Below are positions 14,969 through 18,059 of a stretch of DNA of 64,000 nucleotides, piece after piece. A program made the position numbers and the translations under genes. Position 1 is the first letter of the stretch. Every line of letters begins with the position of its first letter. The notes below the pieces were generated by a model, which searched no databases, was not told where the DNA came from, and saw nothing but the letters and a program-made list of their open reading frames with translations. Origin of the DNA: an uncultured Tateyamaria sp. (GTDB lineage Bacteria; Pseudomonadota; Alphaproteobacteria; Rhodobacterales; Rhodobacteraceae). The stretch spans positions 372,001 through 436,000 of the forward strand of contig NZ_CANMEU010000002.1 of NCBI RefSeq assembly GCF_947497045.1, given 5' to 3'.

Positions 14969-15292
14969 ATGCAATTGCCCCCCACCGTCACATCCCGTGC
15001 GTTTGAACGATTGGCTGAAATCGGGGCCGCAGATCAGGGTCAGGCCCTGCGCATCGCGGTTGAGGGGGGCGGATGTTCCGGCTTTCAGTACGAGATTGCG
15101 CTGGATCAGCCCAAAGAGGATGATCTGATCCTCGAAGGCTCCGGCCAGAAGGTCGTGGTGGACGCGATCAGCCTACCCTTCCTGTCCAACGCCACTATCG
15201 ACTTTTCCGAAGAGCTGATCGGCGCGCGTTTTGTAATCGAAAACCCCAACGCGACCAGTTCATGTGGCTGTGGCACATCCTTTTCGATGTAA
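14969..15292 (+). CDS. erpA: A-type iron-sulfur carrier protein
   Basis: Scaffold/carrier of the IscA/SufA/ErpA type that delivers Fe-S clusters to apo-proteins. At 107 residues it has the three invariant cysteines: Cys36 in EGGGCSGFQY, and Cys99 and Cys101 in SCGCGTSF. The ErpA name rests on the short length and stand-alone position away from isc/suf genes; a more general IscA-like name is equally safe. It lies tail to tail with the 354-residue protein, 4 bp apart. Confidence 0.9.
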   Translation: MQLPPTVTSRAFERLAEIGAADQGQALRIAVEGGGCSGFQYEIALDQPKEDDLILEGSGQKVVVDAISLPFLSNATIDFSEELIGARFVIENPNATSSCGCGTSFSM

Positions 15293-15296
15293 CGCC

Positions 15297-16361
15297 TCAG
15301 GCGGGCACGGCCCGCGCGAATTGTTCAAAGAAGGCGGCAAAATGGGGCGAGGACGCCTCGCTGATCCGCAATGTGGCTCCTGCATCCGGGTCCAGCATGT
15401 CATATAGGCCCGCCTGCATCTGACCCCAATCGGCACTTCGTGCATCCGCGAAACTCAGCAGTGCGGCCGACATCGGGCGCAGCGCCCCTGCCGCCGGAAC
15501 CGGGCGTTGAAACAAGGTCCGCCCTCCGGGCACGGCGCGGGCCATCTGGTCCTGACCCGCCGTGGCGCAGGCCCAGTTGGCCACCAGATATTCGTGATAA
15601 TCATCTGACAGCGGCGCATCGCCGTCTTGCCTGACGTCAAACCCATCAACGGTCTGGCGCACCGCCGCTTCCCATACCGGGTTTGCGGCCTGGCCAGCCT
15701 GACGCATGGCCACACAGACTTCGGCCAGCAAATCCATGTTCTGATCCAGATGCGCAAGAATGCCCGCATATTCCAGGCTGACCAGCGCCCGGGCATCAAG
15801 GCCAGGGTCCTTGCGCCCGTATTCGGACAGATAGAACACGATATGGGTCAACTCATAGGCCGCCTTTTTGTTGGGCAGTGCAAAGGTGGCCGGGCGATTG
15901 ATAAAGGCGTGCAGACGCTCATCCAGCGCCGGATCGGCCGCCGCCGTGCGCACGCCGCGCCGCGCCAGCAGGCGGCGCGCTTCGGCGCGTTGCAGATCGC
16001 TCAGCTCGGCTTCGGGCAGGCCCTGTTTGGCCACCCACCCACACAGCCGTTCCATCTGCGCGCCGGCAACGCCAAGGTCTTCGAGGTCGAGACCAATAGA
16101 CAACAGGAAGCGGTAATATTGAGGAAAGAATTGCAGCCGCTCGCTCAGACTGGCGTAAAAGGCCAGATGCGGGGTCAGCGCCTCTGGGGACACGCGCGTG
16201 CCGGTGCATTCCAGAATATTGAGCAGTTCGGCGTTCTCTTTCAGCCAGAACACATCATCCTGAATACGGCGATGGCGCGCGAACCCGTCGATAAGGGCAT
16301 CAGTTCGCTCGGCCAGACGCTGGCGGCGCGGCGGGACGTTGAGGGCAATGACATTTGACAT
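15297..16361 (-). CDS. Unknown 354-residue protein, partner of the repeat protein
   Basis: I cannot place this protein in a named functional family. It is predicted to be mainly alpha-helical and soluble, with no signal peptide or membrane segment. Recognisable stretches include LKENAELLNILECTGTRV (about residues 39-56), LSERLQFFPQYYRFLLSIGL (about 72-91) and KKAAYELTHIVFYLSEYGRKD (about 165-185). No nucleotide-binding loop or obvious metal-binding cluster is seen. It follows the FSSGS-repeat gene by 50 bp on the same strand, so the two are very likely one operon, with the repeat protein translated first. The pairing is the strongest clue to its role. Confidence 0.8.
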   Translation of the reverse strand: MSNVIALNVPPRRQRLAERTDALIDGFARHRRIQDDVFWLKENAELLNILECTGTRVSPEALTPHLAFYASLSERLQFFPQYYRFLLSIGLDLEDLGVAGAQMERLCGWVAKQGLPEAELSDLQRAEARRLLARRGVRTAAADPALDERLHAFINRPATFALPNKKAAYELTHIVFYLSEYGRKDPGLDARALVSLEYAGILAHLDQNMDLLAEVCVAMRQAGQAANPVWEAAVRQTVDGFDVRQDGDAPLSDDYHEYLVANWACATAGQDQMARAVPGGRTLFQRPVPAAGALRPMSAALLSFADARSADWGQMQAGLYDMLDPDAGATLRISEASSPHFAAFFEQFARAVPA

Positions 16362-16411
16362 GTAGGTTGTCCTTTTCTTTGCAATATTGCGTCCCGCCGC
16401 GGCAGCGACGT

Positions 16412-16930
16412 TTACGAGCCCGACGAGAAGAGACCGGTCACCGCACCGTCCGTTACAGTGCCCGTGACAGGGGCCGAGCCGGAGGAAAACATCTCGGTCG
16501 CATCCCCAGCACTGGCATCCGACGTGGTCGGGGCGGAGCCGGACGAGAACATGTGCGTCGCATCACCCGTCGTCGCATCCGAAGCGGTCGGCGCAGACCC
16601 GGAGGAGAACATTTCAGTGGCATCCCCCGCCGTGGCATCGCTGGCCATGGGGGCCGAACCGGACGAGAACATGTGCACGGCGTCGCCCGCGGCAGTGTGC
16701 GCCGTTGTCGCCGTCGAGCCGGAAGAGAACATCTCGACCGCATCCCCTGAGCTGGCGTCGCTGGCCATCGGCGCAGACCCCGAAGAGAACATCGAGATCG
16801 CATCCCCCATCAGCACATCACTCGCCGTGGGCGCAGAACCGGAGGAAAACATTTCAGTCGCATCGCCGCAGTGCAGGCCGTCGATTTCAGTGATAATGGT
16901 GGAGAAAGAAACTTTACGTTGAGCAGTCAT
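16412..16930 (-). CDS. Eight-unit FSSGS repeat protein
   Basis: A 172-residue protein with a 21-residue head (MTAQRKVSFSTIITEIDGLH, then Cys21) followed by seven full 20-residue repeats and one short final repeat (residues 22-172). The repeat pattern is GDA-x-x-MFSSGS-x-x-x-x-SDA-x-x; MFSSGS occurs seven times and LFSSGS once, at the very C-terminus. No signal peptide is evident. Codons for FSSGS differ in all eight copies, so the protein motif, not the DNA, is conserved. The head-plus-repeated-core layout resembles a multi-core modified-peptide precursor, but repeat scaffolds look similar. ATG 16930 has AAAGGA about 9 bp upstream. It is the first gene of a pair with the 354-residue protein. 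Confidence 0.85.
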   Translation of the reverse strand: MTAQRKVSFSTIITEIDGLHCGDATEMFSSGSAPTASDVLMGDAISMFSSGSAPMASDASSGDAVEMFSSGSTATTAHTAAGDAVHMFSSGSAPMASDATAGDATEMFSSGSAPTASDATTGDATHMFSSGSAPTTSDASAGDATEMFSSGSAPVTGTVTDGAVTGLFSSGS

Positions 16931-17276: not shown

Positions 17277-18059
17277 ATGAAAATCGCGACGTTCAACATC
17301 AACGGGATCAAAGCGCGTGCCGAGGCGCTGCCGCGCTGGCTCGATGCGGCACAGCCCGACGTGGTGCTGATGCAGGAGATCAAATCCGTAGACGAAAATT
17401 TCCCCCGAGAGTTGTTCGAAGACCGGGGATATAACGTCGAAACCCATGGGCAAAAGTCGTTCAACGGGGTCGGCATTCTGTCCAAACTGCCGCTGGAAGA
17501 CATGAGCCGCGGCCTGCCCGGCGATGAGAGCGACGAACAGGCCCGCTATATAGAGGCCACGGTGATGGGTGAAAGCCAAGCGGTCCGCCTGTGCGGTCTC
17601 TACCTGCCCAACGGCAATCCGGCACCGGGGCCAAAATACGACTACAAACTGGCCTGGATGGAGCGGTTGCGCCTGCGCGCGCTGGAATTGCTGGCCGAAG
17701 AAACACCGTTTCTGATGGCGGGCGATTACAACATCATCCCGCAAGCCGAAGATGCCAAACGGCCCGACGCCTGGCGCGAGGACGCATTGTTCCGGCTGGA
17801 GAGCCGCACCGCCTATCGTCGCCTGATCAACCTCGGGCTGACCGAAGCCTTTCGCGCACGCAGCCTCGGGCCGGGTCACTATTCATTCTGGGACTATCAG
17901 GCGGGCGCTTGGAACCGCGATGACGGCATCCGTATCGACCATTTCCTGATGTCCCCTGCTTGCGCGGACATGATGACCGACTGCCAGATCGACAAACAGG
18001 TCCGCGCCGAGGAAAAACCCTCCGATCACGTGCCGGTCTGGATTGATCTGGCGGCCTAA
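17277..18059 (+). CDS. xth: Exodeoxyribonuclease III
   Basis: AP endonuclease and 3'-5' exonuclease of base-excision repair (EEP fold). At 260 residues it begins MKIATFNINGIKARAEAL with the catalytic Asn. It has LMQEIK with the metal-binding Glu (residues about 33-38), AGDYNIIP (Asp/Asn pair, about 149-156) and the C-terminal IRIDHFLMSP and PSDHVPV with the catalytic Asp-His. It converges with the HNH gene, with a 4-bp stop overlap. Confidence 0.95.
   Translation: MKIATFNINGIKARAEALPRWLDAAQPDVVLMQEIKSVDENFPRELFEDRGYNVETHGQKSFNGVGILSKLPLEDMSRGLPGDESDEQARYIEATVMGESQAVRLCGLYLPNGNPAPGPKYDYKLAWMERLRLRALELLAEETPFLMAGDYNIIPQAEDAKRPDAWREDALFRLESRTAYRRLINLGLTEAFRARSLGPGHYSFWDYQAGAWNRDDGIRIDHFLMSPACADMMTDCQIDKQVRAEEKPSDHVPVWIDLAA

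Follow-up and report, generated by a model that had tools for sequence, protein, structure and literature searches.

Cyanobactin precursors hold several cores per precursor, with conserved recognition elements between them, and yeast prohormones of the alpha-factor type hold many copies of one peptide per precursor, varying between species. The gene pair described here, a repeat protein and a partner of the Pfam family DUF6902 from an uncultured Tateyamaria sp. of the Rhodobacteraceae, can be set beside both. Compared with cyanobactin precursors, repeat proteins of this type carry up to 20 copies, nearly all of one core, and are accompanied by a different putative modifying enzyme. Compared with the yeast prohormones, the repeat protein is bacterial and comes with a putative modifying enzyme, and inspection by eye revealed neither a secretion signal nor a processing site in it.

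The closest described enzymes act on lasso peptides. A DUF6895-family epimerase has been reported in lasso-peptide modification, according to the title of the report (Shi et al., ACS Catal. 2026, 16, 1757; cited in PMC13352647, a review of interlocked peptides), and another account (PMC10406935) describes MslH as a metal-dependent lasso-peptide epimerase with a calcineurin-like fold and two His/Asp pairs for acid/base chemistry. DUF6902 resembles the former in that it passes the DUF6895 Pfam cut-off and in that the motifs YxLTHxxFY, DLLxE, and YHxxLV occur in both families, but it constitutes a separate Pfam family and is paired with a long, putative repeat precursor. The likeness to MslH lies in two conserved histidines and several conserved Asp or Glu residues; unlike the calcineurin-like MslH, the DUF6902 protein is modeled as nearly all-helical and has no PDB match at E <= 0.001.

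We consider the pair to be, with a probability of about 0.6, a multi-core RiPP-like cassette in which DUF6902 modifies every core, most likely by epimerisation. Although RiPPs as a kind are known, the combination of a multi-core precursor with a DUF6895-related putative enzyme appears to be new. A literature search at the level of listings, including Roseobacter and Ruegeria systems, returned no description of the cassette and no paper naming DUF6902, and returned DUF6895 only in a reference list.

The gene pair and its chromosomal setting

The window, that is, the whole stretch of 64,000 nucleotides that was analysed, contains both of the genes described in an earlier, sequence-only reading, with products of 172 and 354 residues and a gap of 50 bp, on the minus strand. 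Their parts and neighbors are as follows.

16412..16930 including the stop codon, minus strand: repeat protein of 172 aa, putative multi-core precursor (ORF and translation)
16868..16930, minus strand: head or putative leader, residues 1-21 (MTAQRK... type)
16835..16849, minus strand: core copy 1, FSSGS
16775..16789, minus strand: core copy 2, FSSGS
16715..16729, minus strand: core copy 3, FSSGS
16655..16669, minus strand: core copy 4, FSSGS
16595..16609, minus strand: core copy 5, FSSGS
16535..16549, minus strand: core copy 6, FSSGS
16475..16489, minus strand: core copy 7, FSSGS
16415..16429, minus strand: core copy 8, FSSGS, the extreme C-terminus
16362..16411, minus strand: intergenic spacer of 50 nt; contains a weakly significant GC hairpin and, resembling a ribosome-binding site, an AAGGA
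15297..16361, minus strand: DUF6902 protein of 354 aa, putative core-modifying enzyme and DUF6895 homologue (Pfam; AF2 model)
15843..15845, minus strand: His173 codon, YELTH motif (alignment of 160 loci)
15732..15734, minus strand: Asp210 codon, DLLAE motif (alignment of 160 loci)
15594..15596, minus strand: His256 codon, DDYHEYLV motif (alignment of 160 loci)
17277..18059, plus strand: xth, exodeoxyribonuclease III, divergent neighbor kept in relatives (NCBIfam TIGR00195/TIGR00633, above cut-off)
14969..15292, plus strand: ErpA-like Fe-S cluster gene, convergent neighbor

Copies 1-7 of the core read MFSSGS and copy 8 reads LFSSGS. TRF detects only part of the array, because the DNA copies have diverged. 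The hairpin between the genes has a z of -1.26 in the window, with a mean of -0.75 over 71 loci (mononucleotide shuffles). The window genome contains a single match to the repeat protein, and its DUF6902 protein is 94% identical to the counterpart in an uncultured Tateyamaria isolate.

Co-occurrence of the two proteins, which the sequence-only reading had proposed as a check, is borne out across the family. DUF6902 is present in 82 of 295 genomes sampled from it, and a repeat profile built from 41 proteins matches 76 of the 295, all of them within those 82; none of the 213 DUF6902-negative genomes matches the profile, the opposite of the repeat gene occurring mostly without its partner, which that reading had named as its refutation. 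The six DUF6902 genomes without a profile match are three with adjoining divergent arrays (G142, G306, and G325, with MMCCS twice, MMSCS twice, and LSPSC eight times), one with DUF6902 on a short piece at a contig end (G182), and two in which DUF6902 stands without an array (G082 and G330). Within the genus, both genes occur in 18 of the 19 other genomes and neither occurs in the last (G019). A query with the window protein gave a weak repeat match in one DUF6902-negative genome (G035; E 8.9e-4, 24% identity, internal stop), which the repeat profile did not confirm.

Of the 80 loci that were read, which are those of the 82 DUF6902 genomes less G182 and G082, 79 carry an array upstream of DUF6902 and in the same orientation, with 50-80 nt between the two in 53 of the 78 measured. 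An automatic rule assigned arrays to 157 of 160 loci, wrongly taking in L121 and falling off-register or on the wrong motif in L118, L120, L131, L134, L135, and L166. The arrays in L086 and L214 (the same stretch, with masked letters) and in L201 and L118, which lie at contig ends, were judged by reading, with only 201 nt present upstream in L201. The loci L151-L230 are not independent of L058-L137, with which they have genomes in common. In the GTDB contigs, relatives of the partner are encoded by 381 stretches, of which 80 were kept. In adjacency and in co-occurrence alike, the pair has the arrangement of a RiPP locus, a small precursor gene beside the gene of what would be a modifying enzyme.

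The surroundings of the pair are also conserved. In 74 of the 80 loci xth is divergent to the cassette, a contig end cutting five of the other six, and erpA lies within 3.5 kb in 68. Of 20 DUF6902-negative genomes, 15, with G019 among them, have erpA no more than about 1.2 kb from xth; for the other five, no erpA was found in the stretch retrieved. In 51 of the 80 loci the start of an EamA-like ORF coincides with the DUF6902 stop or lies close to it, with an overlap of 4 nt in 44, and one such member was confirmed as PF00892; the remaining 29 loci are without it, it occurs in none of the 15 loci of Tateyamaria, the genus of the window, and a look at the 1.5 kb surrounding xth in the 20 DUF6902-negative genomes detected none. 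The recurrent neighbors look by eye like ordinary chromosomal genes, and neither a protease nor a lasso-type gene was recognised among them. The conserved pairing and the comparison of the locus with DUF6902-negative genomes speak against chance neighborhood as an account of the pair. A mobile element was likewise rejected, as the partner has no match in a plasmid collection and the chromosomal locus is conserved.

Cores, spacers, and heads of the arrays

The repeat protein has no Pfam match, and its only NCBIfam match is far below the cut-off (E 0.17). Assignment to a described repeat family was rejected after scans of six relatives gave no or weak matches only; the CRAM_rpt match of L135 is barely above the cut-off (20.4 versus 19.8 bits) and was taken as compositional. 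In the heads of 41 aligned relatives, which represent 41 of the 77 arrays and form the alignment A2, M1 is invariant and K6 is conserved in at least 90%. The arrays comprise 2-20 units of varying length, each with a core of four or five residues preceded by G-[DE]-x-x-x-x-F, often followed by [AG]-P, and joined by a variable spacer; in L040 (the same gene as L070) the cores are only about 8 residues apart. In 47 of 77 loci the last residue of a core is also the last residue of the protein. Two distant arrays, L316 and L317, in which Met replaces Phe (MMTSVA, LMPTSN), extend the family beyond the F-x-S pattern.

Variation is distributed very differently within and between arrays. Over 72 arrays with at least three copies, nearly every one from a different genus, identity at core positions c2-c5 is 0.97-1.00 within an array versus 0.35-0.70 between arrays, while the Gly six residues ahead of the core Phe is near-constant on both scales (0.94 within, 0.92 between) and the spacers are 0.26-0.35 identical within arrays and 0.08-0.20 between them. 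The underlying count covered 77 of the 80 loci (L086, L118, and L121 were left out) and accepted copies with at most two mismatches to the dominant core. Because copies are thus picked by their likeness to that core, the count was repeated with a core-blind anchor (G, five residues, F or Y), which yielded 505 copies; of 78 loci, 74 contain one or more of them. For the 70 arrays compared in this manner, the same tetrapeptide is shared by 0.921 of pairs taken within arrays but by 0.078 of pairs taken between arrays, and the highest value among 500 shuffles was 0.143. Uniformity is incomplete, as only 46 of the 72 arrays have all their copies equal, and on average 91% of copies carry the commonest core. 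The conserved head and G..F element, set against a core that is uniform within arrays and variable between them, may reflect a leader and recognition layout.

The 34 dominant cores, which include FTSWS, FTSGL, FSTSC, FTNWC, FITSC, and FASGS, usually take the form F-x-[ST]-[GWSAC]-[SALMC], and Ser, Thr, and Cys are frequent in them. When placed on a DUF6902 tree of 79 rows (L130, at a contig end, was left out), for 77 of which the core is known, they require at least 50 changes over the 77 rows, a rough figure because this quick tree is poorly resolved, leaving 35 of its 76 inner branches open, and because the cores of L120, L131, and L134 are off-register or ambiguous.

Two core types in one array were observed in L101, L113, L178, and L184 and in the FSTSS-type Tateyamaria loci L005, L006, L008, and L010, the minority type lying mostly at the last copies and in L101 also at the first. 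The species of Tateyamaria differ in this respect: some use FSSGS almost throughout, and in others FSTSS fills nearly every copy up to the final one or two, where FSSGS stands instead. It is as if one precursor might give two products. In L134, two different small repeat genes lie in tandem ahead of DUF6902, at -773 to -494 and -380 to -119, one with FTSGS-like copies and the other with FGSSC copies.

Copies with the same core differ in their codons, with a mean of 2.35 silent differences per 15 nt over 59 arrays and every copy distinct in 21 of the 59; DNA homogenisation alone therefore does not account for core uniformity, and the silent differences argue for selection on the peptide. In the array of the window, two copies differ on average by 3.0 silent changes. 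Several claims of the sequence-only reading are sharpened by these comparisons. Its eight FSSGS copies at 20-residue spacing, the last at the C-terminus, are all present in the window protein, and its observation that their codon strings all differ holds for the eight distinct 15-nt strings counted there. The exact 20-residue period is likewise a property of the window from which some relatives deviate, and the 21-residue head does contain one Cys, but that Cys is not conserved among relatives. The exclusion of recent DNA expansion stands for the window, with its eight distinct strings, but does not generalize, since the arrays of L081 and L105 have few silent differences and look recently expanded. 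Finally, the selection that it saw on the peptide motif agrees with the silent differences, but FSSGS varies between genera, and what is conserved is the repetition of one core in each array.

The DUF6902 partner and its DUF6895 relatives

The partner, for which the sequence-only reading had found no known family, belongs to Pfam PF21843 (DUF6902), which it matches with 517.4 bits against a cut-off of 27 over model positions 1-351 of 351. It also matches PF21836 (DUF6895) less well, with 80.6 bits against a cut-off of 23.8 over residues 29-232; an NCBIfam scan assigned no model. An hhalign comparison of 21 DUF6902 and 9 DUF6895 proteins gave a probability of 97.7 and an E of 1.7e-12 over 183 columns with 19% identity. 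Common to both families are the blocks YxLTHxxFYxxEYG, DLLxE, and YHxxLV, and with them both histidines and DxxxE; the TH and YH blocks were found in 10 of 10 DUF6895 proteins by reading the sequences. The AF2 model of the partner, built on an alignment (A1) of 68 sequences, the window plus 67 of the 80 loci, is helical except for two short strands (pLDDT 95.1, pTM 0.92). A fold search of the PDB with this model returned nothing at E <= 0.001, the best match having an E of 0.22 and the non-significant matches including helical repeat proteins such as armadillo proteins, and a PDB sequence search with the partner returned no credible relative (best E 0.41).

Residues H173, D210, E214, and H256 are nearly invariant across 160 DUF6902 loci. 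His173 is present in 159, the sole exception being L121, which is without an array; Asp210 is present in 159; and His256 is present in 159, the remaining row having a gap and being taken as the contig-cut L130. By analogy, the two conserved histidines and the conserved acids of DUF6902 would suit acid/base chemistry of the MslH type.

Loss of the array and loss of this site occur together. L121, in which His173 is replaced by Arg, is the only one of the 160 loci with a readable upstream region and no array, and it is also the most changed, with substitutions at 15 of the 66 positions that are conserved in at least 97% of other loci; the second most changed row, with 10 of the 66, is contig-cut. 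L241 (in G082, outside the 160) is likewise without an array and has His173 replaced by Gln, His256 replaced by Thr, and 35 conserved positions changed. Comparison of 79 intact loci with an array and 2 decayed loci without one gives a Fisher p of 3e-4, in a test picked after the data had been seen. Such joint decay, in two genomes only, could reflect either an enzyme or a mere binder, in each case with conserved sites decaying after array loss. The divergent DUF6902 gene of L241 (129 bits), beside xth, is still an open frame of 365 aa and has perhaps been re-purposed. L314 (in G805), with its DUF6902 gene in pieces and its array reduced to two imperfect copies, is on sequence a decaying cassette.

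DUF6895-type genes are found behind small ORFs in two other families of the class (G439 and G676), in another family of the phylum (G515), and on a Pseudalkalibacillus plasmid, two Streptomyces plasmids, and a Kitasatospora plasmid, so that the phyla represented are Pseudomonadota, Bacillota, and Actinomycetota. One genome of the family of the window (G823) also has such a pairing of a DUF6895-type gene with a small ORF, and in L249 two DUF6895-like ORFs stand without an evident small ORF. Further matches in H5 (Gemmatirosa), G411, and G422 lie outside the loci read, with ORFs listed for G411 and G422. The small ORFs have a loosely similar head, [SA]G[ILA][ILV][ND]..., and several have an aromatic tail, such as GPWYAY, GPWFVL, or NYVYKG, which is present in two copies within a single ORF in L232 and L233 and in two ORFs in L231, at the following positions.

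L232 9937-10368, minus strand: DUF6895-linked small ORF with a twofold repeat
L233 8700-9185, plus strand: DUF6895-linked small ORF with a twofold repeat
L231 about 8.6-9.2 kb: DUF6895-linked pair of paralogous small ORFs

Three of the DUF6895-linked small ORFs were compared with Pfam, and none scored above cut-off. These twofold-repeat or paralogous ORFs, from outside the Roseobacter group, may constitute another undescribed precursor family.

A probable multi-core cassette and competing explanations

In the mechanism that we infer, which extends to recognition, reaction, cleavage, export, and use, the repeat protein would serve as a precursor with a short head followed by 2-20 units of recognition element, spacer, and core. 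DUF6902 would bind every unit and act on every core through a site comprising His173, Asp210, Glu214, and Tyr255-His256. Given the homology to DUF6895 and the title of one paper on a member of that family, DUF6902 would most likely epimerise a core residue to the D form. The product would likely be a short peptide, freed by an unlinked protease and probably exported, where the overlapping EamA gene is present, by its product. The retention of the polar site as the cores change, and the parallel decay of site and substrate, are consistent with an enzyme that modifies a multi-core substrate. Of the two explanations offered by the sequence-only reading, a multi-core modified peptide and a repeat scaffold recognised by the partner, the former is largely supported and the better of the two, backed by the pairing, by the behavior of the cores, by DUF6895 homology, by the precursor-like ORFs beside DUF6895 in other phyla, and by the joint loss of array and conserved site.

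The cassette could be a RiPP system without being an epimerase system, if DUF6902 acts on the cores by some other chemistry, for example ring, ester, or backbone modification. Such an outcome is possible but unlikely: the relationship of DUF6902 to DUF6895 is distant, at 19% identity over 183 columns, its usual cores do not resemble the tails seen in the small ORFs beside DUF6895, and the Ser, Thr, and Cys frequent in cores would fit other reactions, but both histidines and DxxxE are common to the two families, suggesting that the chemistry is the same. A further departure from the epimerase model would make DUF6902 a non-catalytic binder (a chaperone, receptor, or assembly factor), with an uncleaved multivalent scaffold as the role of the repeat protein and the core as the epitope that is bound. 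A multivalent ligand also predicts near-uniform cores and variable spacers, and the helical DUF6902 model, with armadillo proteins among its non-significant PDB matches, is in keeping with a binding role. At least 50 core changes against a near-invariant H173, D210, E214, and H256, however, are better explained by a catalytic site than by a specificity pocket, and the DUF6895 relatives are paired with unrelated small ORFs, making a scaffold decidedly unlikely.

That the repeat protein is itself a structural or surface protein, a beta-solenoid with DUF6902 as its accessory, is very improbable. Its single-sequence AF2 model does show short strands recurring in each 20-residue unit, but with low confidence (pLDDT 54.4, pTM 0.48), and AF2 is reported to give unrealistic beta-solenoids for repeats (PMC11795689); moreover, unit length varies, and in some arrays, such as L040, the cores are about 8 residues apart. 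With respect to the use of the modified peptide, one doubtful proposal is a lineage-specific pentapeptide signal or self-recognition tag, in which DUF6902 would make one D residue in each of up to 20 copies and the peptides would then be released and exported.

If the multi-core epimerase reading is true, 82 of the 295 sampled genomes of the family, more than a quarter, carry an undescribed peptide factory whose putative enzyme had carried only the label of a "domain of unknown function," and the DUF6895/DUF6902 superfamily would, in at least three phyla, provide a handle for the mining of modified peptides. With its 34 natural dominant cores, the cassette would offer a ready substrate panel for asking how a small helical protein might switch the handedness of a residue in a ribosomal peptide. 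That all or nearly all cores of an array change together affords an unusual view of the evolution of multi-copy peptides, and should the signal proposal hold, the cassette would represent a bacterial counterpart, in the Roseobacter group, to multi-copy pheromone precursors.
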